From positions 1 through 31,038 of IMG/VR virus record IMGVR_UViG_3300025137_004735: 31,038 nt of DNA; one strand, 5' to 3'. The notes beneath the pieces were generated by a model. The model saw nothing but the letters and a program-made list of their open reading frames with translations. It ran no database searches and was not told the DNA's origin. Shown here piece by piece: positions 2,760 through 22,542 of the stretch. Position 1 is the stretch's first letter. Every line of letters starts with the position of its first letter. Origin of the DNA: a virus. The position numbers and the translations under genes are program-made.

Positions 2760-3053
2760 ATGAATATTATTAAGCTAATTGAAGATGTAGGTTTGCCAAT
2801 TGCAGGTGGTCTTATCATGGGATATTTTATTTTCTTAATAATGAAGCAGCTAATGGGCAATCTAGTAAATGACATAAAAGGCGTACAAGGAATCACAAAG
2901 ATGTTAATTACTAGAGCATCAATTATGAATAACGATATGATAAGAATAGATACAAGCGTATCAAGCGCTTTGAATTTACCACCCGACCTAGACCGAATCG
3001 CGAGAGCAGAAAACTTTGTGGAAGATGGCAAGATTGACGCAAGGCGTGATTAA
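2760..3053 (+). CDS. Small single-span membrane protein (possible holin accessory)
   Basis: 97 residues. A short N-terminal helix is followed by a hydrophobic span at about 12-30 (GLPIAGGLIMGYFIFLIMK) and an amphipathic C-terminal region (IKGVQGITKMLITRASIMNN...). Layout and some residues resemble the next gene (MNIIKLIEDVGLP versus MDIVSLVEKFGFT), so the pair may be ancient duplicates. Such N-in, C-out span plus helix proteins are frequent in phage lysis regions, but no specific function can be assigned. There is no obvious Shine-Dalgarno before the ATG. The stop overlaps the start of the following gene. Confidence 0.65.
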   Translation: MNIIKLIEDVGLPIAGGLIMGYFIFLIMKQLMGNLVNDIKGVQGITKMLITRASIMNNDMIRIDTSVSSALNLPPDLDRIARAENFVEDGKIDARRD

Positions 3054-3313
3054 TGGACATTGTAAGCTTAGTTGAAAAGTTTGGTTTCACGTCGGTCATG
3101 GTTATAGGCTTGGGCTATTTTGTTTATTATGTTTGGCAAACCATAACCAATACAATTGACCCTGCTGTTTCAGAAATGAAAAAAACAATAATTAGACTGA
3201 CTGATCAATTAAGGCTCTTAGACCAAGATATGATACGATTACAGCAGAAAGTGAATACGGTTTTAGAATTGAATGAAAAAAAACCAAAAAACAAAGATAG
3301 ACAAGATCCTTGA
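3053..3313 (+). CDS. Small single-span membrane protein with coiled coil, paralogue-like of its upstream neighbour
   Basis: 86 residues. The hydrophobic span lies at about 12-30 (FTSVMVIGLGYFVYYVWQT). A heptad-patterned helix follows (MKKTIIRLTDQLRLLDQDMIRLQQK within 43-70), and the tail is very basic (EKKPKNKDRQDP). Its ATG shares the last base of the upstream stop (TAATG), so translation is probably coupled. The span plus coiled coil could support oligomerisation in the inner membrane, as in holins, pinholins or antiholins. Function is inferred from position only. Confidence 0.65.
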   Translation: MDIVSLVEKFGFTSVMVIGLGYFVYYVWQTITNTIDPAVSEMKKTIIRLTDQLRLLDQDMIRLQQKVNTVLELNEKKPKNKDRQDP

Positions 3314-3398
3314 TTTTATTACTGAATTTATAATTTGGGGATTTAGTTTAGGTGTTTTAGTTTTGATCGGATTAATTATATTCCTCATAGCTAAATAG
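3273..3398 (+). CDS. Tiny membrane protein (41 aa) overlapping its upstream neighbour
   Basis: ATG at 3273, stop TAG at 3396-3398. The protein has a basic N-terminus (MKKNQKTKIDK) and one long hydrophobic stretch (IIWGFSLGVLVLIGLIIFLI) ending in AK. It overlaps the end of the preceding gene by 41 bases in another frame and stops ten bases before the csgF ATG, so its stop region carries the csgF ribosome site. No strong ribosome site of its own is seen, and re-initiation is plausible. Single-span tiny proteins like this are common in lysis regions. It may be real, but is supported only by the hydrophobic pattern and tight packing. Confidence 0.5.
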   Translation: MKKNQKTKIDKILDFITEFIIWGFSLGVLVLIGLIIFLIAK

Positions 3399-3408
3399 GA
3401 GATTGAAG

Positions 3409-3870
3409 ATGGGTAGCACAGAATTAAAACTTATAGCAATAAATGTTCTGTTTGTTTTCATTGTTGTGCAGGTTATACAAGCCGATGAAATGACCCACAC
3501 TTTTAAAAACCCTAGCTTTTCAGGGGTAGGAACATCAAGTCACTATTTGACTATTGAGAATCAACAATTCAACAGAAAAGAATCAATCAAAGAAGAAATC
3601 AAAGCCTATCAAGAAGAATTAGAAAGAGATGCAAAAAATACCACATTAGCCCGATTCATAAGAAATCTTGAATCACGAATCTATGCACAGTTGAGCAGAC
3701 AACTTGTAGACAACCTATTTGGTGAAACGCCTATGACATCAGGACTGCTAGAACTTGAAGGCAATAAAATTGAATATTCAACAGACGGCGACTTTATAAC
3801 TTTAATCATTACGGATGCAGATGGAAACACGACTGAAATTACTCTACCCATTGGTGATTTTGCTTTCTAG
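3409..3870 (+). CDS. csgF: CsgF-like curli assembly protein
   Basis: 153 residues. The N-terminus is a Sec signal peptide (hydrophobic 6-22, likely cleavage after A25 in QVIQA). The mature N-terminus MTHTFKNPSFSG matches the CsgF pattern T-x-x-F-x-N-P-x-F-x-G, the part of CsgF known to insert into the CsgG pore. A variable helical, charged middle follows (KEEIKAYQEELERDAK). The C-terminal part matches CsgF in order: helix with L...I...I..QL, then beta strands (YSTDGDFITLIITDADGN). In known curli systems CsgF tethers nucleator and fibre to CsgG at the cell surface. ATG 3409 is chosen because AGGAG lies seven bases upstream; a TTG at 3403 is in frame but worse placed. It overlaps csgG by 56 bases. 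Confidence 0.85.
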   Translation: MGSTELKLIAINVLFVFIVVQVIQADEMTHTFKNPSFSGVGTSSHYLTIENQQFNRKESIKEEIKAYQEELERDAKNTTLARFIRNLESRIYAQLSRQLVDNLFGETPMTSGLLELEGNKIEYSTDGDFITLIITDADGNTTEITLPIGDFAF

Positions 3871-4651
3871 TTGCACCAACTGGTCCATATTAGATAATTA
3901 CATACCGCCAGTAAGCTTAACCAAGCAATCAGAAGTTGGAACCCTAATCAACAAAGATCTAGCAGCAATAGGTAAGCCATTTCTTAAGCCCACTATAGCT
4001 GTATATCCTACTAGCTTCACAGATCAAACAGGGCAAAGAAGAAGTAACAGTTCGTATGCGTCCTTCTCAACAGCTATTACGCAAGCACCACACGCATATT
4101 TAATCCGTGCCTTACAGCATGCAAGCAATGGAGAATTTTTTGATGTGGTAGAGAGAGTAGGTTTAGATAATTTGACTAAAGAAAGACAACTAATACGTTC
4201 AACAAGAAAAAGTCACAAAGAAAATAAAGACCTACTGCCACTGACATTTGCAGGTTTGTTAATGGAAGGCGGTGTGATAGGATATGAAAGTAACATAAAG
4301 TCAGGCGGCTTGGGTGCTAGATATTTGGGCATAGGCTCTACCAAAGAATACAGGCAGGATATTGTGACTGTATCTTTAAGGACCATTTCTGTAAGTACAG
4401 GTAAAGTCTTGACTGAGGTGTTGACTACAAAATCAATTCTTAGCGTAGCTATAAGTCAAGATGCTTTCCGATTCGTTTCCAATGATACTGAATTAGTGGA
4501 AATAGAAAACGGAATGGTAGAAAACGAGTCTGTGAATATTGCCTTGCAGAATGCCATAGAAACAGCAGTTTTAGAAACCATTAATTTAGGATTAAAGAAA
4601 AATTTGTGGAGAATTGTAGATGAAGAAATACTTAATAATATTCGCGGTTAG
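3815..4651 (+). CDS. csgG: CsgG-like outer-membrane curli secretion channel
   Basis: 278 residues. Lipoprotein signal with lipobox L-S-S-C (C20). CsgG signatures follow in order: IAVYPTSFTDQTGQ, YASFSTAITQAPHAYLIRAL, FFDVVERVGLDNLTKERQLIR, a GGVIGYESNIKSGGLGARYL segment, an RTISVSTGKVL strand, and a C-terminal IALQNAIETAVLETINLGL helix. Length and motif order equal bacterial CsgG, which forms a nonameric outer-membrane pore. In the constriction loop the Phe (F of ASFSTA) is kept, while the positions of E. coli Tyr51 and Asn55 are Ser by simple alignment, so the gate may differ. The start lies inside csgF and the end overlaps the next gene by 32 bases. No csgE or csgB homologue is recognisable nearby. 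Confidence 0.92.
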   Translation: MQMETRLKLLYPLVILLSSCTNWSILDNYIPPVSLTKQSEVGTLINKDLAAIGKPFLKPTIAVYPTSFTDQTGQRRSNSSYASFSTAITQAPHAYLIRALQHASNGEFFDVVERVGLDNLTKERQLIRSTRKSHKENKDLLPLTFAGLLMEGGVIGYESNIKSGGLGARYLGIGSTKEYRQDIVTVSLRTISVSTGKVLTEVLTTKSILSVAISQDAFRFVSNDTELVEIENGMVENESVNIALQNAIETAVLETINLGLKKNLWRIVDEEILNNIRG

Positions 4652-5324
4652 TTCAAGTTTTATTTTTGCAGATAACGAGGTATATGTGGACCAAGTGGGC
4701 GCAACCTTTAATCTTGACATAGAGCAACTGGGATCCTCAAACATTATAGGCGGTGCGACTGCAGCAGCAGGTAACATGACCCCTCTTGATTTAGACGGTG
4801 CAACTATGACACTAGACATCAACCAAATAGGTGATAGTAATAAGTTCTTAGGCGATATAACAGCCGATACATTTACAGGTTTCTTTGAGTTTGATGGTGA
4901 TAGTAATACCTTTAACATACAAACTGACCCGACAAATACTTATGGTGCTGACAGTGGTAACTTCAATGTTGATGTCACAGGTTCAAGCAATACTTTTACG
5001 CTTGACGTTGCCACAAGTGATTTAGCAAGCACTTTAGATCTAGATTGGATCATACAAGGTAACAGCAATACATTTGACTTTGATATTGACTATGATCAAG
5101 CAACAAACTATGTTGATATAGATGGAGATTCCAATACAGTCAATTTTGATGCAGATGGGTATGCTCAAGGCTACTTTAAACTTGAACATGATGGTAACTC
5201 ACGAACCTTCAACATAGATCAACAGAGTACATTAGCAAGTGACTGGTTACGCATACTTTCTAACGGCAATAGTGGCACTGTCTGTGTCATTCAAAGTGAC
5301 GGCGGTACAAGCACAAGCTGTTGA
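4620..5324 (+). CDS. Secreted curlin-repeat-like protein (candidate CsgG substrate)
   Basis: 234 residues. A clear signal peptide (MKKYLIIFAVSSSFIFA, cleavage before D18) precedes a low-complexity Asp/Asn/Ser/Thr-rich protein. It is built from about eight degenerate repeats of hydrophobic beta strands around a G-(D/S/N)-S-N turn: near residues 38, 72, 93, 121, 147, 169, 192 and 216. Flanking strands such as ATFNLDIEQLG and MTLDINQIGDSN retain the Gln-x-Gly-x-x-Asn feature of curlin repeats, while later repeats are more acidic. It ends in two cysteines (C222, C234), unlike classical CsgA. Directly following csgG, it is the natural candidate cargo for the pore and may form amyloid-like or beta-solenoid fibres. 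That it is a true curlin is inferred. Confidence 0.7.
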   Translation: MKKYLIIFAVSSSFIFADNEVYVDQVGATFNLDIEQLGSSNIIGGATAAAGNMTPLDLDGATMTLDINQIGDSNKFLGDITADTFTGFFEFDGDSNTFNIQTDPTNTYGADSGNFNVDVTGSSNTFTLDVATSDLASTLDLDWIIQGNSNTFDFDIDYDQATNYVDIDGDSNTVNFDADGYAQGYFKLEHDGNSRTFNIDQQSTLASDWLRILSNGNSGTVCVIQSDGGTSTSC

Positions 5325-6348
5325 TATTGGAGATGTGTCAGAACTTACAGGCAATGCACAAGTTTTAAGGGACAAGCCCTACAGAGCAGAGTTAGACTTT
5401 AACATTCAACAAAATGATAATGTAGAAACGTCTGATGGTCGTATTGCCATAAAGTTTTTAGACGATTCAACCGTTAAACTCACTGAACATTCCCAACTCA
5501 CGATTGATGAATACATCTATGACCCGAATCCATCTAACTCCAAGCTTGCATTAAACTTTGCCAGTGGTACAGCAAGGTTTATAACTGGACAATTAGGCAG
5601 AATTGATAAAGAAAACATTAGCATACAAACACCAACAGCCAATATTGCGATTCGTGGGACGGATTTTACCGCGACAGTAGATGAGTTAGGTCGTAGTCTT
5701 ATTATCCTTCTGCCAGATCTCTCAGGGCTTTCTAGCGGCGAAATAACAGTAACTACTGCTATGGGTACTGTTGTTTTAAATAAGCCCTATGAAGCTACTA
5801 CAACTACAGTTTTTGAAAGCAGCCCAAGCAAGCCAGTAATACTAGATCTTACATTAGACATTATTGACAATATGCTCATTGTGCAACCGCCCAAAGAAAG
5901 CAAAATAGTCACAACTGAAAATACAACATCTACAAGCAATGTACTAGATGTAGACTTTCTAGAATTTGACGGATTGGATGCAGATTATTTTGCATCAGAT
6001 GATCTAGAGTTTACAGAATTAGATATTAATTATTTAGATGTTAATTTCTTTGAAGATTTATTAAAAATTATGGATGAATTAGATAAATTAAAAGATGATG
6101 AGTTGCAACAAGAACAAACTATCACAAGAATAACAGGCACATCAGTAGGTCAAGATACAACAACACAAATTATAACTTTGGTTACAGGAGAGTTGATCTC
6201 CCTAAGAAGAACCGTTGAGCAGTCTGTGCAAGTAGATCTAAACTCAAGTCAAGGCTATACCGTTATCTTTATACAAGATGGTGTATCAAACACCGTAAAA
6301 ATAAATGGTGGCGGTGATTCAGTGATAAAAATCGCACAGGGATCATGA
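5239..6348 (+). CDS. Periplasmic FecR-domain protein
   Basis: 369 residues from a GTG start. The signal peptide (residues 1-27, ending VQAQA) is encoded inside the end of the upstream curlin-like gene, an 86-base overlap; the ORF extent and the need for export decide this start. Residues about 29-165 are a FecR domain: VSELTGNAQVLRD, a NVETSDGRIAIKFLDDST segment, KLTEHSQLTIDEY, and then IQTPTANIAIRGTDF. The middle is acidic (about 230-270) with a predicted coiled coil at 265-300 (LLKIMDELDKLKDDELQQEQ). The last 35 residues (VIFIQDGVSNTVKINGGG) resemble one curlin-type repeat. In bacteria, FecR-domain proteins are often encoded beside CHASE2-cyclase genes, as here, which suggests a periplasmic partner of the sensor. 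Its stop overlaps the cyclase start. Confidence 0.85.
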   Translation: MTGYAYFLTAIVALSVSFKVTAVQAQAVDIGDVSELTGNAQVLRDKPYRAELDFNIQQNDNVETSDGRIAIKFLDDSTVKLTEHSQLTIDEYIYDPNPSNSKLALNFASGTARFITGQLGRIDKENISIQTPTANIAIRGTDFTATVDELGRSLIILLPDLSGLSSGEITVTTAMGTVVLNKPYEATTTTVFESSPSKPVILDLTLDIIDNMLIVQPPKESKIVTTENTTSTSNVLDVDFLEFDGLDADYFASDDLEFTELDINYLDVNFFEDLLKIMDELDKLKDDELQQEQTITRITGTSVGQDTTTQIITLVTGELISLRRTVEQSVQVDLNSSQGYTVIFIQDGVSNTVKINGGGDSVIKIAQGS

Positions 6349-8123
6349 AAAAAACAACAATATTCATAGCGCTTATATTTGGATTATCACTACCAATGAT
6401 AATGCAAAATGTTTCACATGAAACATTAAAACTAAAAACATTTGATACATTTGTTACTAAAAAAGACCCAACTGGCTACTTCACAATATTAAACATAACT
6501 GAAGAAGATGTAATATCTGAAGGCGGTTATCCCTTCCCTAGAGCAAGACTGGCAGAGATACAAACAGATCTATACAACGCAGGTGCATTGGGTGTTGGTT
6601 GGGTGATTGCCTTTACGGAAAAAGATAGATTTGACGGCGATCATCAATTTGCATCATCTTTAAAATTGCTGCCTAGTGTTTTATCTACTTTTGAAAGTAA
6701 TATTGGAAGTTATCCGCCTACTACTGGTACGGTAATATTGGGCGAGAACATAACTGGCATCAAAGCAAAAGGTATAAGAGAAAATATTAAGGTCCTGTCA
6801 AAATACGCAGGTCAAGGTATTGCTTTTGCGCCAGTAGATGTTGATAACCTAGTCAGACAAATACCTTTGCTTATGCAGACTGATGATGGTTGGGTTGCTT
6901 CTTTCGGCACTGAGGTTCTCAAAACATTAGCTCAACAAGATACCTACATAATAAAAGGATCTGCAGCAGGAATTGAGGAAATTGCTGTACGTGGAATACC
7001 ACCTACAAAGTTAGATAAGTATGGCAGACAGTGGATTGATTGGGTCAATACACCGCAGACAACACTACAAGAAATGGATGTACAAAATAAATTTGTTTTT
7101 ATTGGTGTAACCGCAAACGGAGTAATGCCGCAAATAGCTACGCCAATTGGATTGCTAGAGCCACACAAAATACAAGCCGCGTTAGCAGAATCCATACTGT
7201 TAGAAAATAGCCCATACGTACCGAACTGGCACTTAACAGCAGAACTAACAATATTTATAGTATTGAGTTCCCTTACATGGATTCTATTGCATGCTTTGGG
7301 TATGACTAGCGGACTAGTTTTGACTACTTGCATTTATTTAGGGGCAATTTACGGCGGAAAAACTTTAATTGAAAAAGGTATCTTAATTGATGTGTCTTGG
7401 TCTTTAATATCAGCATTCATAATTGGATCAATAGCTTTTTATCTCAAATTTAGAGAGCAATACAAACTGCGACAACAGATAAAAAAACAATTTGAACATT
7501 ACTTAGATCCAAGGCAAGTCAAAAGACTACAAGATAATCCTGATCTACTTAAGTTAGGTGGTGAAAAAAGAACATGTACCTTTTTATTTACAGATCTTAG
7601 GGGCTTCACTGCTTTGTCAGAGACAGTAACACCTGAAAGAGTCACTTACATTATGAATAAAGTTTTAACGGTACAGCAGCATTCTGTGCAAGCACATGGC
7701 GGAATGGTAGATAAGTATATTGGAGATGCAATGATGGCGATTTTTAATGCACCTTTAGATCTAACAAATCACAGCAGAAAAGCTGTTGAATGTGCAACAG
7801 ATATAATGGCAGCAATTAAGATCCTGAATATAGAATTAGTGTCAGAAGGAATACCACCAATTGCTATAGGTATTGGTATAAATTCAGGAGATGCAATTGT
7901 AGGTAATATGGGAAGTGAGAATAGGTTTGATTATACGGCTATAGGTGATGCCGTAAACGTAGCTGCAAGACTTGAAAGCGCCACCAAAGAAAGGAATGTA
8001 GATATACTTATAGGCAGACAGACTGAGTCTTATTGCGGATTTCATTTAAAACTTTTAGAGCCTATAATGGTAAAAGGTAAATCACAGCCGTTGCAAATAT
8101 TCACATGGATAGACAGTCAATAA
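6345..8123 (+). CDS. CHASE2-domain class III adenylate cyclase (membrane receptor)
   Basis: 592 residues. Membrane anchor at about 5-21, then a periplasmic CHASE2 domain (about 30-290). Three further spans follow near 299-318, 321-338 and 350-367. A short linker (FEHYLDPRQVKRL) leads to a class III cyclase domain at 405-592. Metal-binding Asp417 (FTDLRGF) and Asp461 (KYIGDAMMA), purine-selecting Lys457 and Thr531, and the Asn538/Arg542 transition-state pair (NVAARLE) are all present. The enzyme should therefore make cAMP from ATP on the cytoplasmic side, controlled by a periplasmic or membrane signal. ATG overlaps the FecR stop by four bases (ATGA). Such a receptor is ordinary in bacteria but very unusual in a phage lysis-region neighbourhood. 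No truncation or frameshift is seen. Confidence 0.92.
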   Translation: MKKTTIFIALIFGLSLPMIMQNVSHETLKLKTFDTFVTKKDPTGYFTILNITEEDVISEGGYPFPRARLAEIQTDLYNAGALGVGWVIAFTEKDRFDGDHQFASSLKLLPSVLSTFESNIGSYPPTTGTVILGENITGIKAKGIRENIKVLSKYAGQGIAFAPVDVDNLVRQIPLLMQTDDGWVASFGTEVLKTLAQQDTYIIKGSAAGIEEIAVRGIPPTKLDKYGRQWIDWVNTPQTTLQEMDVQNKFVFIGVTANGVMPQIATPIGLLEPHKIQAALAESILLENSPYVPNWHLTAELTIFIVLSSLTWILLHALGMTSGLVLTTCIYLGAIYGGKTLIEKGILIDVSWSLISAFIIGSIAFYLKFREQYKLRQQIKKQFEHYLDPRQVKRLQDNPDLLKLGGEKRTCTFLFTDLRGFTALSETVTPERVTYIMNKVLTVQQHSVQAHGGMVDKYIGDAMMAIFNAPLDLTNHSRKAVECATDIMAAIKILNIELVSEGIPPIAIGIGINSGDAIVGNMGSENRFDYTAIGDAVNVAARLESATKERNVDILIGRQTESYCGFHLKLLEPIMVKGKSQPLQIFTWIDSQ

Positions 8124-8329
8124 TTTTAAAAATAGTTAGATTCTTTAGACCACGTTATCAAGTGCGTGTCTCTTTTAATAAAGAATATGGCGATTCTGAT
8201 GATAAGGTATATATTGCAAAAAAAATAATTAAACAAAAAGAGAATCATTTAAAGTTTCGTAATCTAGCAAATAAGACTATTGAGTATAGAAGCGCAGGCG
8301 GATTAAACTATATTATTGAGGATATGTAA
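8105..8329 (+). CDS. Conserved small phage protein, unknown function
   Basis: 74 residues, basic. The N-terminus has an amphipathic basic segment (IILKIVRFFRPRYQ). The C-terminal half (KVYIAKKIIKQKENHLKFRN, then AGGLNYIIEDM) has the look of a small beta-rich protein that I associate with phage lysis or tail neighbourhoods, but I cannot give a function. It starts inside the end of the cyclase gene (19-base overlap) and its stop overlaps the following start (TAATG), so it is translationally embedded between cargo and spanin genes. Confidence 0.6.
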   Translation: MDRQSIILKIVRFFRPRYQVRVSFNKEYGDSDDKVYIAKKIIKQKENHLKFRNLANKTIEYRSAGGLNYIIEDM

Positions 8330-8724
8330 TGCAGCAATTATTGGTAGGAGTAGTAATAGTATTGGGTTTAGCTTCTTATTATTTTTATAGTCAAAATCAA
8401 ATATTACAGGCTAATAATTCAGCACTTGAAGGTGCGGTAGCCACACAAGAAGAAGCAATAAAAACTATACAAGCTGACTTTGAAATGCAAACACAGCAAT
8501 TGCAGGACTTGACAATTAAGAGTCAAGCAGCGCAAAAAGAATTAAATAGATACACGCAGTTCATACAAAACTATGAACTTACTGCTAAAATTTTAACCGA
8601 TCCAATAGAAATGCAGAGGAAAATTAACAATGGTACAAAACATATCATGGAAGAGATTGAGAAACTCAGCGACACAGTTGATAATCTTGATGATGGTTTG
8701 CAGTTGCAGTCTAATTCCAACTAA
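8329..8724 (+). CDS. Rz-like inner-membrane spanin subunit
   Basis: 131 residues. One N-terminal membrane span at about 3-21 (QLLVGVVIVLGLASYYFY) is followed by a long helical periplasmic domain rich in Gln, Glu and Ala (ANNSALEGAVATQEEAIKTI...). This is the N-out, C-periplasmic architecture of Rz-type i-spanins. The o-spanin-like lipoprotein gene starts inside it in another frame, the classic Rz/Rz1 arrangement. Together they would bridge and fuse inner and outer membranes at lysis. Sequence identity to a named family cannot be shown here, but topology plus the embedded lipoprotein make the call good. Confidence 0.75.
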   Translation: MQQLLVGVVIVLGLASYYFYSQNQILQANNSALEGAVATQEEAIKTIQADFEMQTQQLQDLTIKSQAAQKELNRYTQFIQNYELTAKILTDPIEMQRKINNGTKHIMEEIEKLSDTVDNLDDGLQLQSNSN

Positions 8725-9019
8725 GAAAATAGAAGTATCAGCAAAACCTTTAGAAAGGCAAATAGTGCAACCTATTATGCCGAGAGAAATAGATCTAAAA
8801 CAACCACAATGGATTGCTGTTACGCCCGATAATTGGGAAGAGCAATTAGCACTAATTGAAGAACAGGAAGGAGAGTTAGTGTTCTTGGCTATGACAATTC
8901 CTGACTATGAGGTGATGGCATATAACATGCAAGAGATCAAAAGATACATCACAGAGTTAAAGGATGTAGTTGTTTATTACAGAAAAGTAACAACAGAAAA
9001 ACTTCCAAATGATAAATAA
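8630..9019 (+). CDS. Rz1-like outer-membrane spanin lipoprotein, nested in the Rz gene
   Basis: 129 residues. A basic N-terminus and hydrophobic stretch (LIILMMVCSC) end in a lipobox-like cysteine (V-C-S-C), so the mature protein would be lipidated. The following segment is Pro-rich (SLIPTKK...AKPLERQIVQPIMPR), as in Rz1. The remainder (TPDNWEEQLALIEEQEGELV...) is acidic and helical and makes the protein longer than lambda Rz1. It overlaps the Rz-like gene by 95 bases in another frame. AGAGGA lies about nine bases upstream of the ATG. Partner of the preceding i-spanin. Confidence 0.7.
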   Translation: MVQNISWKRLRNSATQLIILMMVCSCSLIPTKKIEVSAKPLERQIVQPIMPREIDLKQPQWIAVTPDNWEEQLALIEEQEGELVFLAMTIPDYEVMAYNMQEIKRYITELKDVVVYYRKVTTEKLPNDK

Positions 9020-9247: not shown

Positions 9248-9643
9248 ATGTCAAACACAGTTACACCATTTGTTTATAACGCAATACTTGAAAGGGTTGT
9301 TGATGGTGACACTGTTGATGTTACTCTTGACTTGGGGTTTTCAGTTTTTCTGCGCAAACAACGCTGCAGGTTGGCAGGCATTGATACCCCAGAGTCTAGA
9401 ACTCGCAACCTAGCAGAGAAGGCATTGGGAAAAAAAGCATCAGCTAGGCTCTCTGAACTTTGTGTAGGCTCATTTAAAATACAGTCATTGGGTAAAGGTA
9501 AATATGGGAGAATACTTGCAATACCTTATACGGAAGATGGTCAAGATATTTGTCAAATGCTTGTCAATGAAGGTCATGCCGTGGAATATCATGGCGGAAC
9601 AAAAACAGCAAAAGTCAGAAATGACGGAACATGGGGCAACTAA
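9248..9643 (+). CDS. Staphylococcal-type (thermonuclease) nuclease
   Basis: 131 residues, a complete SNase domain. Ca-binding and catalytic motifs are present: VVDGDTVDV (D19, D21), RLAGIDTPE (R41, E49) and KGKYGRIL (R88), which correspond to Arg35, Glu43 and Arg87 of the S. aureus enzyme. It should cleave DNA or RNA endonucleolytically with Ca2+. There is no signal peptide, so it acts in the cytoplasm or after lysis. Possible roles are host nucleic acid degradation or debris removal. It lies between lysis genes, one base before the lysozyme start. Confidence 0.9.
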   Translation: MSNTVTPFVYNAILERVVDGDTVDVTLDLGFSVFLRKQRCRLAGIDTPESRTRNLAEKALGKKASARLSELCVGSFKIQSLGKGKYGRILAIPYTEDGQDICQMLVNEGHAVEYHGGTKTAKVRNDGTWGN

Positions 9644-9644
9644 A

Positions 9645-10106
9645 ATGCACTTATCAGATGAAGGCTTATCATTAATTAAAAAGTTTGAGGGATGTCCAAC
9701 GGAAGGCGGTCTTGCTGTCCCATATAAATGTCAAGCAGGTGTTTTGACTATAGGTTACGGTCATACTAGAACGGTCAAACCGCATGATAAATGGACAATG
9801 GATCATGCAAGCTACATTCTGCAAGAAGAAATAGAAGATGAATATGAACCGTATGTCAATGATCTAGTAACAGTGCCATTACATCAAAATCAATTTGACG
9901 CTTTGGTAGCATGGGTATTTAATCTTGGACCAACAAACTTCACAAGCAGCACAATGATACAGGTACTTAATTCAGCAGATTATGATGGTGTTCCATATCA
10001 AATGAAAAGATGGAACAAAGTAAATGGGCAGGTCAGTGACGGTTTAATTCGTAGACGAGAAGCGGAAGCATTGCTGTTTGAGGGTAAAAGTTGGGAACAT
10101 ATCTAA
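9645..10106 (+). CDS. Endolysin, GH24-type lysozyme
   Basis: 153 residues from ATG 9645 (alternative in-frame ATG at 9621 adds eight residues; the family normally begins with LSDEGLSLIKKFEG, so the later start is preferred). Motifs: KFEG with Glu, then CQAGVLTIGYGHT, and later HQNQFDALVAWVFNLG and RWNKVNGQVSDGLIRRREAE, typical of phage muramidases of the R21/P1 Lyz type. The catalytic spacing is odd: the FEG Glu is 13 residues before the Cys of the C-x5-T motif, while a second Glu (PTEGG) sits at the canonical distance of eight. There is no signal or SAR segment, so a holin is needed. Hydrolyses peptidoglycan. Confidence 0.92.
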   Translation: MHLSDEGLSLIKKFEGCPTEGGLAVPYKCQAGVLTIGYGHTRTVKPHDKWTMDHASYILQEEIEDEYEPYVNDLVTVPLHQNQFDALVAWVFNLGPTNFTSSTMIQVLNSADYDGVPYQMKRWNKVNGQVSDGLIRRREAEALLFEGKSWEHI

Positions 10107-16088: not shown

Positions 16089-17792
16089 ATGACTATATAC
16101 GATAGATTGAATGAAGAAAGAATAAAACCAAAACACTTTGACCACGGCAACCAAAAATTAAAATGTCCAAGCTGCCAACCACCACACAACGCACACGATA
16201 CACCGTTATCTTTTACTATAAATGATGAAGGTGCGGTATGGAATTGTCACCACTGCGGTTACAAAGGCGGCTACAGTGAAAATTATAAGTTTACAAAACC
16301 ACAGACAACATATGTAAAACCAAAGCTACCAACGCAGGAAGAAAGACCCTCAAAAATGTTGACGTATTTTGCAGAGAGAGGAATAAGCAAGGGTACTATT
16401 GAAAAGCAAGGCATATATTTAGAAGGCAGATGGATTGCGATACCTTACAAGGATGCTGATGCAAGCGTAGTGAATATTAAATACAGAACAAGGGATAAAA
16501 AGTTTAAGCAGTCTGCTAATGCCAAAAGAATACTTTATAACTATTTTGCAGCTAAGGACCAAGAAACAATTATATTTGTTGAAGGCGAGTTTGACTGTTT
16601 GGCTTTGATAGAGTGCGGTTATGATAATGTTGTATCTTTGCCTGATGGCGCTCCTAAAGAAGCAAAGTTTAAAGAGAATGATGCAAGGTTTAAATGTTTA
16701 GAAAATTGTCCATTAGAAAACGCAAAGAAGATAATTATATTTACAGACAATGACCAAGCGGGTAACAGTTTGCATGATGAATTATTGCACAGATTTGGCA
16801 AAGATATTTGTTGGTATGTAGATTATCCAAAGGACTGCAAGGATGCCAATGATGTATTGATAAAGCATGGCGCACAAAAACTTAAAGAAACAATAGAGCA
16901 GGCGACACCGTACCCTGTTGACGGTCTATATGCAGCAAACAACTATTACGGCAGTGTATTGGATTTATATAATGGTAACTATGTTAAGCCGATTGAGGTA
17001 GGTTTTGATAACTTAGACGAAATATATAAAGTCTTAAAAGGAACTTTTCATTGTGTGACAGGAATCCCAAATCACGGCAAGTCTAGCTTTGTTGACCAAA
17101 TGTTAATTAAGATAGCTGAAAATCATAATTGGAAGTTTGCGGTGTACAGTCCCGAACATAGCACACAAATGCACTTGCGCCGATTGGTACAAATGCAGCA
17201 GAAGAAAGCTTTTGATGAAGGCTTTACAAACAGAATGACAACAGAAGATCTACAGGAAAGTTTGGCATGGCTAAATGATAGATTCTATTTTATAGAAACA
17301 AAAGATGTTGTACCTGATATTGATTATATTTTAAACATAGCTAAAGCAAGTTGTTTGAAGTATGGGATCAACGGATTAGTTATAGATCCTTTTAATGAAG
17401 TCTCAGCCGCAAGAAGTGGTAATACAAGAGAGGACGAGCATATAAGGGATTTCATTTCTAAGTGCAAAAGGTTTGCAAGGGTACACGATGTAACGATTTG
17501 GGTTGTAGCGCATCCTACAAAACTACCAAAGGGCAATGACGGCGGTTATTCTCCGCCTACGGCATATGATATTAGTGGTGCCGCGCATTGGCACAATCAA
17601 TCTGATGCGGTCCTGACTGTGCATAGAGATTTTGATGATGATAGCATTCAGGTATTGACAAGAAAGATTAGAGAACAAGGTCTTTATGGTAAGATTGGAC
17701 AAGCTGATTTTCTTTATGATGCAAAGAGCAGGTGTTTTGTTGAAAAGAGTACACTCGGTTGGGATGTACCTGAGCAATGGCAAAGCATGTAA
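16089..17792 (+). CDS. Bifunctional primase-helicase (T7 gp4-like)
   Basis: 567 residues. N-terminal zinc ribbon CPSC...CHHC (C26, C29, C53, C56). TOPRIM domain with FVEGEFDCLAL (E165) and IIIFTDNDQAG (D220, D222). RecA-like helicase with Walker A GIPNHGKS (325-332), Walker B GLVIDPFNE (429-437) and VVAHPTK as the H-motif. It primes lagging-strand synthesis and unwinds DNA at the fork. ATG 16089 is chosen since an upstream in-frame extension would overlap the initiator. It follows the initiator by four bases, in one replication operon. Confidence 0.93.
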   Translation: MTIYDRLNEERIKPKHFDHGNQKLKCPSCQPPHNAHDTPLSFTINDEGAVWNCHHCGYKGGYSENYKFTKPQTTYVKPKLPTQEERPSKMLTYFAERGISKGTIEKQGIYLEGRWIAIPYKDADASVVNIKYRTRDKKFKQSANAKRILYNYFAAKDQETIIFVEGEFDCLALIECGYDNVVSLPDGAPKEAKFKENDARFKCLENCPLENAKKIIIFTDNDQAGNSLHDELLHRFGKDICWYVDYPKDCKDANDVLIKHGAQKLKETIEQATPYPVDGLYAANNYYGSVLDLYNGNYVKPIEVGFDNLDEIYKVLKGTFHCVTGIPNHGKSSFVDQMLIKIAENHNWKFAVYSPEHSTQMHLRRLVQMQQKKAFDEGFTNRMTTEDLQESLAWLNDRFYFIETKDVVPDIDYILNIAKASCLKYGINGLVIDPFNEVSAARSGNTREDEHIRDFISKCKRFARVHDVTIWVVAHPTKLPKGNDGGYSPPTAYDISGAAHWHNQSDAVLTVHRDFDDDSIQVLTRKIREQGLYGKIGQADFLYDAKSRCFVEKSTLGWDVPEQWQSM

Positions 17793-17805
17793 CCAAAAGG
17801 TAAAC

Positions 17806-18420
17806 ATGACAGAAGAACTAAAATTTAAAAACATAACTCTTAAGGTGATGGATATAGAAGATCTAAAACCTTATGAAAACAACCCAAGAAATATTACAAA
17901 AACTGCCATTGATGCAGTTGCTAAGTCAATTGCAGAAAATGATTTTAATTCAGTAATTGTTGTAGATAAAAACTTAGAAATAATTGCAGGTCATACAAGA
18001 GTTCTTGCGGCTAAGAGTTTGGGCTATAAAGAATTGCCAGTAATGGTATCTAATATTGACGAACTGCAAGCAAAAAAATTGAGACTTTTGGATAATCGTT
18101 TAACAGAGTTGACGGAATGGGATTCGGAAAAACTTTTAATTGAAAGTTATAGCGCAGAACTTGATGAAGATTATCAAGCAATGTTTGCCCCTCTTATGCG
18201 GGACGACATGAGTGAATTTGATCTGTCAGATGATGATTATGTAGATAATGAAATGACTACATACAATAACGCAATCATTCAATATAACTTAGTTTTTGAC
18301 AACGAGCAGCAGCAAGCCGATTGGTATACTTTTTTGGCAAAACTTAAAGAACAATATCCCAATGAAGAAACACATGCTGCAAGAGTGCAAATGTATATCA
18401 AAAGCGTCACCAAAGTTTAA
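17806..18420 (+). CDS. ParB/Srx-domain protein (first of the cassette)
   Basis: 204 residues. ParB/sulfiredoxin-like core: VMDIEDLKPYENNPRN, NSVIVVDKNLEIIAGHTRVL (GHTR at 62-65) and DNRLTELTEWD. The C-terminal 70 residues (YNNAIIQYNLVFDNEQQQ...) match the extra domain seen in phage ParB-methylase proteins, but no methylase is fused. ParB-fold proteins bind DNA or hydrolyse CTP, ATP or nucleic acid; here the activity is unknown. It starts 13 bases after the primase stop and its stop overlaps the ATG of the PAPS reductase-like gene. Confidence 0.82.
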   Translation: MTEELKFKNITLKVMDIEDLKPYENNPRNITKTAIDAVAKSIAENDFNSVIVVDKNLEIIAGHTRVLAAKSLGYKELPVMVSNIDELQAKKLRLLDNRLTELTEWDSEKLLIESYSAELDEDYQAMFAPLMRDDMSEFDLSDDDYVDNEMTTYNNAIIQYNLVFDNEQQQADWYTFLAKLKEQYPNEETHAARVQMYIKSVTKV

Positions 18421-19487
18421 TGGGAAAACATCAAAAAAAGGTTAGAACCTATATTGACACAAATGTTTATGATGAATCTATCAAACGTATAAACCATATA
18501 TTTGATACTTTTGATACCGTGGTTGTTATGTTCAGTGGCGGGAAAGATAGTTTGGCTACTTTGCATTTAGTCAAAGAAGTTTCTGAAAAAAGGGGCATTA
18601 AAAAGGTGAATGTGGTTTTTAGAGATGAAGAATTAATTAACAAGTCAGTAATAGATTTTGTGGATCACTACTATCATTTGGACTGGGTGGAGATGCTATA
18701 TTTTTGCGTACCATTACACAGTCAAAAATACGTTCTAGGAAACACTGAAAGCTATATACAGTGGGATAAAAAAAGAAAACATATAAGACCTATGCCTGAC
18801 TATGCAATTAAAACAGGCGCGTCTGATGAAAATGTTTTTTCGCAAGATACTATGGATGAATACACAGCCAGTTTTTACAAAGGCAAAATAGCTTTTGTTA
18901 ATGGCATAAGGGCAAGTGAGTCATTGATAAGGTTTGCTTCATGTATGAACAAATTAAATGAAAATTATATTAATGAAACTAAAAGCGGTGTGAAGAATGT
19001 TAAATTTTGCAAGCCAATATTTGATTGGGAAGAGGACGATGTTTTTAAATATTTTTATGACAACGAAATACCTTATTGCAAGATCTATGATTATCAAATG
19101 TGGAACTCCGATCAATTGCGAGTAGCAACACCAGTACATGCAGAAAATGCCAAGAAATTTAATAAATTAAAAACTTTAGATCCACTTTTATATGAACAGA
19201 TAATAGATATTTTTCCTGAAATGATTGTACAGGATAGGTACTACAAAGAATTCAACAAAGATGCAGTCAAAGAAAAATATTCTAAAGATATGCAGGGAGT
19301 GCTTCAATATATAAAAGATACCTTGATAGATCCTAAGCAAAAACATGAAGCATATAAAATGTTCAAACAGACAGTAGTAGCAAATCGCAATAATCCTCAA
19401 GCTTATCCTGTACCGTATATATTGAAATATTTTATGTCAGGAAGTTATAAAAGAGCCTTACAACCATTACCCAAAAAACAACAATGA
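18420..19487 (+). CDS. PAPS reductase-family protein (IbrA-like, PP-loop ATPase fold)
   Basis: 355 residues. The PP-loop SGGKDS is present at 39-44, followed by ATLHLVKEVSEKRGIKKVNV. Further motifs: VNGIRASESLIRF and FCKPIFDWEEDDVFKY, typical of the PAPS reductase/DndC fold. The long C-terminal helical region matches the IbrA group rather than true CysH. Enzymes of this fold adenylylate or reduce sulfur compounds. Flanked by two ParB-domain genes, it matches the IbrA/IbrB arrangement reported in enterobacterial phage-related elements. Chemical role unknown. It overlaps both neighbours by one to four bases, so the set is one transcription unit. Confidence 0.85.
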   Translation: MGKHQKKVRTYIDTNVYDESIKRINHIFDTFDTVVVMFSGGKDSLATLHLVKEVSEKRGIKKVNVVFRDEELINKSVIDFVDHYYHLDWVEMLYFCVPLHSQKYVLGNTESYIQWDKKRKHIRPMPDYAIKTGASDENVFSQDTMDEYTASFYKGKIAFVNGIRASESLIRFASCMNKLNENYINETKSGVKNVKFCKPIFDWEEDDVFKYFYDNEIPYCKIYDYQMWNSDQLRVATPVHAENAKKFNKLKTLDPLLYEQIIDIFPEMIVQDRYYKEFNKDAVKEKYSKDMQGVLQYIKDTLIDPKQKHEAYKMFKQTVVANRNNPQAYPVPYILKYFMSGSYKRALQPLPKKQQ

Positions 19488-20005
19488 AAGAACCAATAGA
19501 TCAAATACAGTGGATAGATGCAAACGAACTTATAGCAAATGACTATAATCCAAATGTTGTATTCACCCCTGAACTCAAAAGCCTAGAAAAAAATATATTG
19601 GCTATAGGTTGGGTGCAACCAGTAATAGCGTCTACATCAAAAGTAATCATAGACGGCTTTCATAGAACCCAATTAAGCATCAATAGCAAAGCGCTGCAAA
19701 AAAAATATAAAGGCATGGTCCCTTGTGTGCTGTTTGACGCTACGAGAGACGAGTCAATGATACTTACGGTCCGCATGAATAGAGCAAAAGGCAGCCATGT
19801 AGCCGTGCGAATGTCTGACATGGTTAAAGAACTTATAGATGTTCATAAGTGGGAAGTAGAAGCATTGGCAAAAGAATTAGGCGCAACAAAAAAAGAAATA
19901 GATCTGTTGTATCAAGACGGAGTTTTCAAATTTAAAAATATAAAAAACTATAAATATTCAAAAGCATGGTACCCACAATTACAGGAGAAAGAAGATGAGA
20001 TTTAA
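19484..20005 (+). CDS. IbrB-like ParB-domain protein (second of the cassette)
   Basis: 173 residues. N-terminal ParB-type core: IQWIDANELIANDYNPNVVF, NILAIGWVQPVI, KVIIDGFHRTQLSI (GFHR at 58-61), and ILTVRMNRAKGSHVAVRMSD, the pattern of IbrB. Short C-terminal helix-turn-helix-like region (VEALAKELGATKKEIDLLYQ). The catalytic or nucleotide-binding His/Arg is kept. Its start is inside the end of the IbrA-like gene, and the methyltransferase start lies inside its own 3' end. Confidence 0.85.
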   Translation: MKEPIDQIQWIDANELIANDYNPNVVFTPELKSLEKNILAIGWVQPVIASTSKVIIDGFHRTQLSINSKALQKKYKGMVPCVLFDATRDESMILTVRMNRAKGSHVAVRMSDMVKELIDVHKWEVEALAKELGATKKEIDLLYQDGVFKFKNIKNYKYSKAWYPQLQEKEDEI

Positions 20006-20559: not shown

Positions 20560-21084
20560 ATGAATACATATAATAGTTTCAGCGTATCGTTGAGAGCAAA
20601 ATCAGCTAAATGGCAAGACGAAATGTACGCAAAAGGATTAATACAAAAGCCAACAAAGTGTTGCATATGCGGTCAAACAAAAGGTCACTTTGACGCGCAT
20701 GCAGAAGATTATACCGAGCCTTTTGAGATAGGTAAGACCGATAGATTTCATTTATGCTATATATGTCATATGGTCGTTCATTGTCGTTTTGGTCATAAAG
20801 GTGGAACAAGATCTTATGATCCAAGGTTAGACAAATCAAGAACCGAATTATGGAATGTATATCTAGTGGCACTAGATTATAAAATATGCTTTGAGCCGTT
20901 TTACAGACCCAACTGGAATTTATTTTTTGAGGAATGTTTAAAAGGTCTTTTCAAGAAAAGAAAGTGTTTCAAGGTAGAGGAGAACGACCCTCAGCTAATG
21001 AGAGAGATAGGAGAAGGTCGTTATATTAATCAAAGCACCTCGTCTAATGTGTTCCATAAAGAAGCAACGGGAAGTTTGTTTTGA
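20560..21084 (+). CDS. HNH-like zinc-binding nuclease
   Basis: 174 residues. Zinc ligands CCICG (C34, C37) and CYICH (C66, C69, H70); catalytic-type His in FDAHAEDY (H47) and the final His in VVHCRFGHKG (H74). This order is that of phage HNH endonucleases, although the usual His-His is reduced to DAHAED. It probably cleaves DNA or serves packaging or recombination. The end overlaps the convergent GGCT gene by 55 bases. A GGAAG ribosome site precedes it. Confidence 0.7.
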   Translation: MNTYNSFSVSLRAKSAKWQDEMYAKGLIQKPTKCCICGQTKGHFDAHAEDYTEPFEIGKTDRFHLCYICHMVVHCRFGHKGGTRSYDPRLDKSRTELWNVYLVALDYKICFEPFYRPNWNLFFEECLKGLFKKRKCFKVEENDPQLMREIGEGRYINQSTSSNVFHKEATGSLF

Positions 21085-21440
21085 TAGTACCCGTCCTCAA
21101 TAGTTTCAAAATAACTTTGCGACGGCATTGAATATCCTTCTCTATTCATTTTGTAAAACATTACATCATGAATCTCACCATGTATCTCAACAGTAAAATA
21201 TTCTTTTCTGTACAGGCGAGGATAACCCTCAAATATATCAAGGCTTGCTTCACACCGATCAGTGATCTCCCACAATAACCCATGTACAGTATTGTATGGA
21301 GCAACTTCAATATCTGCTACTCCTTTGAATACTAACCGCCAATCAGGAAGATCTAAGCTACAAAGTTTTTTTGCTTGAGGGCATCTACCGCTCATATTAG
21401 CCAAGTTTAAATTTGCTCCATATGCGAAATATAGTTTCAT
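21030..21440 (-). CDS. Gamma-glutamylcyclotransferase-like protein (GGCT/AIG2 fold)
   Basis: 136 residues. Fold signatures: MKLYFAYGANLNLANM (YGAN at 7-10), HGLLWEITDRCEASLDIFEG with general base Glu71, and YPRLYRKEYFTVE. These fit GGCT enzymes that release pyroglutamate from gamma-glutamyl amines or peptides. The amidoligase encoded upstream could form such bonds, so the two may be synthesis and reversal halves of one modification pathway (inference from known pairing). Strong AAGGAG site. Confidence 0.88.
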   Translation of the reverse strand: MKLYFAYGANLNLANMSGRCPQAKKLCSLDLPDWRLVFKGVADIEVAPYNTVHGLLWEITDRCEASLDIFEGYPRLYRKEYFTVEIHGEIHDVMFYKMNREGYSMPSQSYFETIEDGYYQNKLPVASLWNTLDEVL

Positions 21441-21673
21441 TATTGTATCTCCTTTATAAAACCGTAATTAATCAATTCGTTCACAAAAGTTTCCAAATCA
21501 TCAAAGATAAATTTGTAATCATATTGCTCATAGATTCGTGCTGCACATTGCTCGCACCAATCATCAACGCTAGCTGCCCTCACAGAAACGAAACTAGACT
21601 TGTACAACTCAACAGCCAAATCTGCTTTTGTTTTAGCTGCATAAAAATTAAATTCATTATCTGCAAATCGCAT
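21440..21673 (-). CDS. Small protein encoded between amidoligase and cyclotransferase
   Basis: 77 residues, acidic. Contains DWCEQCAARIYEQYDYKFIF, with a C-x2-C pair that could bind metal, and a C-terminal helix (DLETFVNELINYGFIKEI). Not recognised. Its start overlaps the amidoligase end by 17 bases and its stop overlaps the GGCT start by one, so it is a third component of this operon. It may be the target, carrier or regulator of the ligase. Confidence 0.65.
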   Translation of the reverse strand: MRFADNEFNFYAAKTKADLAVELYKSSFVSVRAASVDDWCEQCAARIYEQYDYKFIFDDLETFVNELINYGFIKEIQ

Positions 21674-22484
21674 TGTTCAACTCCTTGTTTCTTTTCATGT
21701 AAAACTTTTTAACCTCAAGACTTATCACTTTTTTCTTGCGCAATTCGTCAAGCAAGTTCTTAGTTGTGTATGTGCTTGTAACATCATCTCTATGTACAGT
21801 CACACCTCTAAAGTCAAAAGCGCAAGCTACAAACCCTTGCGTCAATCTAACCCAGTTCTCAACTTTCTCAGGGTTCAATGTACCTTGGTGCGCTCTGTTC
21901 TCAACAGAACCATGTCTCCAATAATTTTGGAAATTCCATTTACCTCTACCTGCAAATGCACCGCGTCCCAACAATCTATCTTTGTTCAATTTATTCAAGT
22001 CAGTAAAGAAATCCCAAAGATTTTCCGCACCGCCAAAATGATCTGCGCAATATCTATTTTGTCTACCACGTCTGCTTTCACTTATAAGACCATTAATACC
22101 CTTTTCATATTTAGCAAAAAACTTCTGCAATTTTCTCAAAGGCGTTGTATCTGCATCAGTAATGTCAATATGCACGTGCATGCCAGTAGTTCTGTTCACA
22201 GTCCCATGTTTCTCACATACAGCCACAACTGCTTTCAACTTTTGCATATCTTCTTCACCGCTCAAGATAGGAGTTACAAGTTCCATGCCATGCGCGTAAT
22301 CATTACCTCTAGGGCTAACGCTACCATCAGGCTTTAATCTCCAAAGATTAGACTTATTGGAATAGTTTGTAACAGTTATCTCAACACCAGTCTCGTCATA
22401 AATTAATGCAGCCATATCGTACATAGATCTGTCAGCAAGAAATTCAAGTTCAACCCCGTATCTTCTTAAGTTATCTAAATTCAT
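21657..22484 (-). CDS. Amidoligase (Amidoligase_2, GS-like COOH-NH2 ligase)
   Basis: 275 residues. Amidoligase_2 features in order: RYGVELEFLAD, an HGMELVTPILSG element, GMHVHIDITD, the NYWRHGSVENRAHQGTLNPE segment, then KVENWVRLTQGFV. The family has a glutamine-synthetase-like fold and forms amide bonds with ATP; known relatives often adjoin GGCT genes, as here. Substrate unknown, perhaps a peptide tag or small metabolite. ATG 22484 is preferred over an upstream TTG at 22502 because AAGGAG is placed correctly for it. Operon promoter lies just upstream. Confidence 0.85.
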   Translation of the reverse strand: MNLDNLRRYGVELEFLADRSMYDMAALIYDETGVEITVTNYSNKSNLWRLKPDGSVSPRGNDYAHGMELVTPILSGEEDMQKLKAVVAVCEKHGTVNRTTGMHVHIDITDADTTPLRKLQKFFAKYEKGINGLISESRRGRQNRYCADHFGGAENLWDFFTDLNKLNKDRLLGRGAFAGRGKWNFQNYWRHGSVENRAHQGTLNPEKVENWVRLTQGFVACAFDFRGVTVHRDDVTSTYTTKNLLDELRKKKVISLEVKKFYMKRNKELNNAICR

Positions 22485-22500
22485 ATTATCTCCTTGTTTC

Positions 22501-22542
22501 AATGTATAAATACATTATGGATTATAATAGTTATAAATGCAA
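22501..22542 (-). promoter_or_regulatory. Promoter and palindrome upstream of the amidoligase operon
   Basis: On the minus strand: TTGCAT (22542-22537), 17-bp spacer, CATAAT (22519-22514). A perfect palindrome AATGTAT-AA-ATACATT (22501-22516) overlaps the -10 box and predicted start, a likely operator distinct from the AATAC-N5-GTATT type. The amidoligase ATG is at 22484. Confidence 0.55.

Follow-up and report, generated by a model that had tools for sequence, protein, structure and literature searches.

In this study, we analyzed a 31,038-base IMG/VR record of an ocean phage (IMGVR_UViG_3300025137_004735, class linear; the whole stretch is called the window below) and found that 2760–8123 holds a cassette for type VIII (curli) export, whose genes are intact, conserved and co-inherited. 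It represents a further instance of a published kind of phage curli system (PMC7029224, PMC9004378, PMC9599517), carried by a further siphovirus-like lineage. An earlier note, made from the letters alone, had named five genes here, and Pfam and hidden Markov model (HMM) searches confirmed all five, which lie on the + strand: CsgF, the curli pore collar/chaperone (3409–3870; PF10614, E=1e-17, and phrog_35372 over its full length); CsgG, the outer-membrane curli pore with the lipobox LSSC (3815–4651; PF03783, E=1e-47); a curlin-like secreted protein with a signal peptide (4620–5324), recognized by its repeat turns and by the Curlin_rpt family PF07012 in relatives; a FecR-domain periplasmic protein starting with GTG (5239–6348; PF04773, E=2e-10); and a CHASE2 sensor with transmembrane (TM) helices and a class III adenylate cyclase (6345–8123; CHASE2 PF05226, E=5e-27; cyclase PF00211, E=1e-19). 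Two small genes directly before them, overlooked in the earlier note, also belong to the curli unit. These are paralogues on the + strand, each encoding a protein with one TM helix and a coiled coil (97 residues, 2760–3053; 86 residues, 3053–3313; both phrog_18771). The features that define type VIII secretion are present in the pore lipoprotein of the PF03783 fold and in the PF10614 collar, and a curlin-repeat substrate with a signal peptide is present at the level of the family, the window copy being recognized as such only through its relatives.

The integrity of the block was supported by several results. Successive frames from CsgF through the small gene at 8105 overlap by 56, 32, 86, 4 and 19 nt, and the overlaps of 4–86 nt within the cassette agree with the operon character previously ascribed to it. 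The open reading frame caller opened CsgF at TTG 3403, whereas ATG 3409, the start given in the earlier note, lies 6 nt after AGGAGA and is the likelier of the two. Chimaeric assembly, which the note had set as its refutation test, was rejected because both joints recur in other contigs, the one between the small TM genes and CsgF in 145 other loci and the one between the cyclase and the gene at 8105 in 20 (some contigs counted twice). Ratios of nonsynonymous to synonymous substitution (dN/dS), calculated by NG86 against close relatives with some dS values near saturation, were 0.04–0.065 for CsgG and curlin, 0.05–0.13 for FecR, 0.06–0.09 for the cyclase and 0.02–0.12 for the second small TM paralogue, compared with 0.16–0.26 for the tail fibre. 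Decay or a frameshift was ruled out by the open frames and these low ratios, and the block is functional, with strong purifying selection on every gene including that of the substrate.

Conservation was assessed by scans of IMG/VR from which the best 80 of at least 572 confirmed CsgG relatives and the best 80 of at least 599 confirmed cyclase relatives were taken, their loci being annotated with HMMs built from the window and the phages HTVC008M and Melnitz. Since only the best matches were retained, these sets lean to close relatives of the window. The same gene order was found in more than 100 IMG/VR contigs. Among non-redundant loci of the CsgG scan with enough flank, CsgF and the small TM gene were each present in 52/52, the curlin-like gene and FecR each in 56/56, and the cyclase in 33/38; directly upstream of CsgF there was one small TM gene in 38 loci and two in 14. 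The five loci that have no cyclase retain all other cassette genes, including FecR. The cyclase can thus be lost from loci that invariably retain FecR and curlin, so the regulated cyclic AMP (cAMP) output proposed in the earlier note is not the core. Such output is plausible, since the catalytic residues of the window cyclase are intact: by alignment it has D417, K457, D461, T531, N538 and R542, which we take to be the two metal Asp residues, the Lys and Asp/Thr for adenine, and the Asn and Arg of class III enzymes. Its closest PDB cyclases are 6fht, 2w01 and 3r5g.

The gene identities support the reading of a putative outer-membrane export pore accompanied by a likely secreted substrate. CsgG aligns with E. 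coli CsgG from the PDB over residues 46–269 (E=3e-43), and in its constriction Y51 and F56 are conserved while N55 is replaced by S. The mature N-terminus of CsgF, HTFKNPSFSG, is conserved among phage CsgF proteins; a CsgF profile had no match in the PDB. The CsgE gate was not found among the cassette proteins. Its absence has also been noted for phage systems (PMC9599517), and CsgE enhances but is not essential for curli secretion (PMC7029224). The curlin-like protein has eight turns spaced 22–33 residues apart and two C-terminal Cys, and GxSN-type turns average 6.7 per protein in its family versus 0.8 after shuffling. PF07012 was matched by 16 of 43 relatives (best 8e-8), and the family profile has a weak hmmsearch match (E=0.006) to PDB 8c50, a "curlin associated repeat-containing protein". 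The AlphaFold model of the protein is confident and nearly all strand (predicted local distance difference test, 87.5; predicted template modelling score, 0.82).

A further finding of our analyses was the C-terminal region of FecR, a protein that consists of a signal peptide, a domain whose fold matches the FecR/PupR-type domains 4m0h and 6ovk, approximately 110 residues predicted to be disordered, and then short strands. At the very end, [IVL]x[IVLF]xQ occurs in all 97 non-redundant relatives versus a shuffled mean of 4.7, and QxGxxN occurs within the last 50 residues of 60 of the 97, versus 2.5 after shuffling and two in the rest of the proteins. As judged from sequence, this conserved motif is of the curlin type, and a contact between FecR and curlin may be inferred from its presence in the C-terminal strands. 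The apparent curlin-like tail is new, as far as the published literature searched shows. The hallmarks of a FecR sigma regulator are not present: the signal peptide directly precedes the FecR domain, there is no cytoplasmic anti-sigma N-terminus and the cassette has no sigma gene that could supply a FecI-type partner.

The full combination of genes had been thought new in the earlier note, which suggested a fibre, a block to superinfection or a pore that aids release. All three ideas had already been proposed in the papers cited above, and the same gene order exists in two cultured systems and one published module. In the Pelagibacter phage HTVC008M (NC_020484, gp011–gp019), two small TM genes (gp011–gp012) are followed by CsgF, CsgG, curlin-like, FecR and cyclase genes, with identities to the window over the matched parts of 46% (CsgG), 41% (FecR) and 33% (cyclase). 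It differs in being a 147-kb myovirus and in having an extra gene between FecR and the cyclase, which is curlin-like by HMM. The Methylophilales phage Melnitz (MZ577097, gp97–gp104) likewise has the order of the window, with gp97–gp98 as the small TM genes, but is a myovirus with a second annotated curlin gene and a replaced Asn in its cyclase site (VS for VN). The cassettes of both phages sit between replication and baseplate genes, that of HTVC008M not being beside lysis genes. The module of a type VIII secretion system (T8SS), FecR and adenylate cyclase (AC) described in HTVC023P-type pelagiphages (PMC9599517) has the same gene list and order, which is given as HK-CsgF-CsgG-CsgA/B-FecR-(CsgA/B)-AC, where HK stands for histidine kinase, and which the window cassette follows. 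Those phages are Podoviridae of ~59 kb; the 31-kb window, in contrast, is part of a genome from a lineage that has contigs of 44–53 kb, a tape measure and a fibre resembling lambda J. According to the same paper, the module occurs in podo- and myo-pelagiphages with similar proposed functions, and viral curli proteins were detected at all 65 GOV2.0 stations, in keeping with a wide distribution of phage-borne curli systems in the ocean.

The assignment of the window to its lineage is based on six cassette-bearing contigs of 44–53 kb whose terminases are 70–78% identical to that of the window. In one of them (G896) there are genes for a tape measure of 556 residues and for a central tail fibre of the J type, and the lineage therefore looks siphovirus-like. 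Other carriers, such as the 58-kb G898, have no match to the window terminase and are similar in size to HTVC023P-type phages. Lysogeny gained no support, as no tyrosine integrase was found in the window or in 13 related records, several of which are fragments.

Our results also bear on two published points. The "HK" genes of PMC9599517 are presumably the small TM genes, judging by their position and shortness. The 15 members of this family have approximately 84–116 residues, and with the cutoff relaxed to E=5 none of them matches a kinase family, HisKA and HATPase included, so the "histidine kinase" label is not supported. A relationship of these small TM proteins to the holin BhlA was considered, but the BhlA family was not among their Pfam matches. 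The second point is the statement in PMC9599517 that FecR and the cyclase are not found within bacterial T8SS operons, to which a CsgG genome scan and FecR genome searches provided counter-examples: three bacterial genomes carry csgF, csgG, one or more curlin genes, fecR and the CHASE2 cyclase in one operon. Two are closely related Caulobacteraceae metagenome-assembled genomes (MAGs; L216 and L222, contigs of 82 and 32 kb), in which the operon has metabolic genes as neighbours (acyl-CoA dehydrogenase, amidohydrolase, peptidase and glycosyltransferase), and the third is from Caulobacterales (L327, contig of 705 kb). Their gene order is that of the window and their FecR is ~40% identical to it, but they have no small TM genes; a search that recovers the phage copies found none of the latter in 289 alphaproteobacterial genomes or in the three operon genomes. 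Such operons are rare, occurring in 2 of 398 Caulobacterales genomes, and new, as far as the published literature searched shows; they make the complete operon available in bacteria for laboratory study. In a quick tree of CsgG, a branch of 99% support split every cassette CsgG, whether from a virus or a bacterium, from 19 ordinary bacterial curli CsgGs, and those of the bacterial operons fell among the viral ones. E. coli curli (csgBAC, csgDEFG) likewise has CsgG, CsgF and repeats of the curlin type, but no CsgA/CsgB orthologues, CsgC, CsgD or CsgE were found here, and FecR and the cyclase are added. Cassettes of the phage type, with small TM genes, were also seen in bacterial MAG bins (L211, L212 and L224, all three in one Rhodobacteraceae MAG, and L231, L218 and L209); these are likely phage contigs binned with bacteria, and Water_Bin34 holds three separate cassettes. 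An unannotated 1499-base "Salmonella phage" record (OR851715) encodes a CsgG 41% identical to that of the window and is perhaps host DNA.

The surroundings of the cassette are informative as well. A J-like tail fibre is encoded at the left end of the window, and the cassette genes point from it towards lysis genes, in agreement with the lysis neighbourhood described in the earlier note: an Rz/Rz1-type spanin pair at 8329–9019 (8329–8724 and 8630–9019; phrog_739, E=8.5e-8, and phrog_812, E=1e-11, lysis category) and a phage lysozyme (endolysin) at 9504–10106 (PF00959, E=3e-40). To the left lies TMx (1991–2374; phrog_10198), a flanking TM protein that, from its position in relatives, is probably the holin; to the right, a small protein (8105–8329) comes after either of two cassettes in relatives. 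TMx thus forms the left border and the small gene the right border of a slot for exchange; both, like the spanin and lysozyme genes, are on the + strand. When relatives were surveyed by a TMx scan and non-redundant loci counted, the content of the region from TMx to the spanins proved variable: 18 loci have the curli cassette, 20 have a different cassette of ~4 kb, in eight TMx is next to Rz (several of these have a cassette immediately before TMx; TMx abuts Rz directly in L174, L361 and L371), and six are of other kinds. The alternative cassette (for example, L422:4581-8293 and L374:9378-13061) encodes an Asn/Thr-rich secreted protein of ~370 residues (19% Asn overall, ~36% in the middle), a secreted acidic protein of ~750 residues and a one-TM coiled-coil protein of ~119 residues; no pore homologue was found in it. 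Relatives of the 750-residue protein were found in 234 IMG/VR stretches and in none of 50,697 phage records, and it has no convincing Pfam family; a NIDO label considered for it was not supported by Pfam and was dropped. The two cassettes occurred together in no locus of the TMx scan and in none of 80 loci found with the 750-residue protein, and in other phages both occur between SNase and lysozyme genes. Two sets of secreted repetitive proteins that replace each other beside lysis genes suggest an extracellular product released around lysis. Tentatively, marine phages might keep an exchange slot here for cassettes that produce extracellular matrix shortly before lysis, a curlin version with a FecR nucleator and an Asn-rich version with a 750-residue partner, both tying or shielding lysing cells, debris and virions; we regard this generalization as possible rather than probable. 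The slot and the Asn-rich cassette are new, as far as the published literature searched shows.

On balance, we lean towards a curlin-type fibre that is exported late via CsgG–CsgF, with FecR as a tethered partner and the cyclase as an optional reader. Expression of the cassette would be late, together with that of the tail and lysis genes. Given that CsgE was not found, CsgG would form an ungated nonameric outer-membrane pore with a CsgF collar, through which the curlin-like beta-solenoid protein would be exported to polymerize on the infected cell. FecR, periplasmic by its signal peptide, would hold its curlin-like strands on the flexible tether and cap, nucleate or anchor the fibre, a CsgB-like job, while the dispensable CHASE2 cyclase would read the state of FecR or the fibre and make cAMP. 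The likeliest benefit is an altered exterior of the cell or debris around lysis, holding siblings and virions together or masking receptors, and not a lysis function. This proposal is favoured because bacterial chromosomes hold the operon away from lysis genes and because the alternative slot cassette encodes secreted repetitive proteins and no pore homologue; expression of pelagiphage T8SS genes in metatranscriptomes (PMC9599517) is also in its favour. Weighing against it, the window curlin-like copy alone has no significant Pfam match, a Foldseek search with its model gave no significant PDB fold match, the C-terminal strands of FecR were modelled at low confidence, and no clumping was seen with Melnitz in cytograms or by transmission electron microscopy (PMC9004378).

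Among other explanations, exclusion of superinfecting phages by a fibre or pore that occupies or hides the receptor (proposed in PMC9599517) is rather unlikely. In its favour, a surface location is expected, and phages that compete with one another might well swap cassettes for secreted proteins at a single site; exclusion genes are usually expressed early, however, and the operon here is among late genes. It also overlaps with fibre export around lysis to the extent that sequence cannot separate the two. We consider it improbable that CsgG–CsgF serves to time lysis, either as a gated pore or as a channel resembling a pinholin (an idea put forward for Melnitz in PMC9004378), with the cyclase or FecR controlling its opening. 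In the window lineage the cassette does lie between a candidate holin and spanins, and 12 of 26 loci have a homologue of a lysis gene no more than 7 kb downstream, but the location in HTVC008M and Melnitz, the chromosomal copies in bacteria and the export substrate kept in every locus all oppose it, and the alternative cassette, having no pore homologue, points to an extracellular product more than to a pore for lysis.

Very unlikely, in our assessment, is that cAMP is the main product, with the FecR/CHASE2 cyclase pair reprogramming host transcription and the curli parts serving as its sensor in the manner of NsrA in Sinorhizobium. The intact cyclase residues would suit such a role, and there are precedents in the outer-membrane barrel NsrA that feeds and controls CHASE2 cyclases in S. 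meliloti (PMC13001267) and in a FecR–CHASE2 kinase pair in Burkholderia (PMC5192318); the loci that dispense with the cyclase and keep the rest speak against it. That the pore would bring small molecules into the infected cell (PMC7029224, PMC9599517) seems the least credible: a pore with no encoded CsgE gate may be open both ways, as PMC9599517 likewise notes, but import leaves unexplained why the curlin substrate, CsgF and FecR are kept in every locus. The cyclase-free conserved core, the curlin-like tail of FecR, the bacterial operons and the alternative cassette of the slot narrow the candidate functions of ocean-wide phage curli.

Elsewhere the window has a primase/helicase gene at 16.0–17.8 kb and terminase, portal, head morphogenesis and head protease genes at 25.2–30.7 kb. 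No DNA-level relatives of its first 25 kb were found among the 50,697 phage records, no riboswitch or other known RNA was detected in the window at the gathering threshold, and a sigma-70 promoter scan was uninformative, giving fewer sites than shuffled sequences. Two other groups of genes were observed. At 17686–20005 there are consecutive genes for a ParB_N protein, a PAPS-reductase-domain protein and a third, ParB-like protein (the third by eye only), and at 21030–22502 on the - strand a GGCT/AIG2-like cyclotransferase lies beside a putative amidoligase (PF06094, PF12224), a pair resembling peptide-tagging systems.

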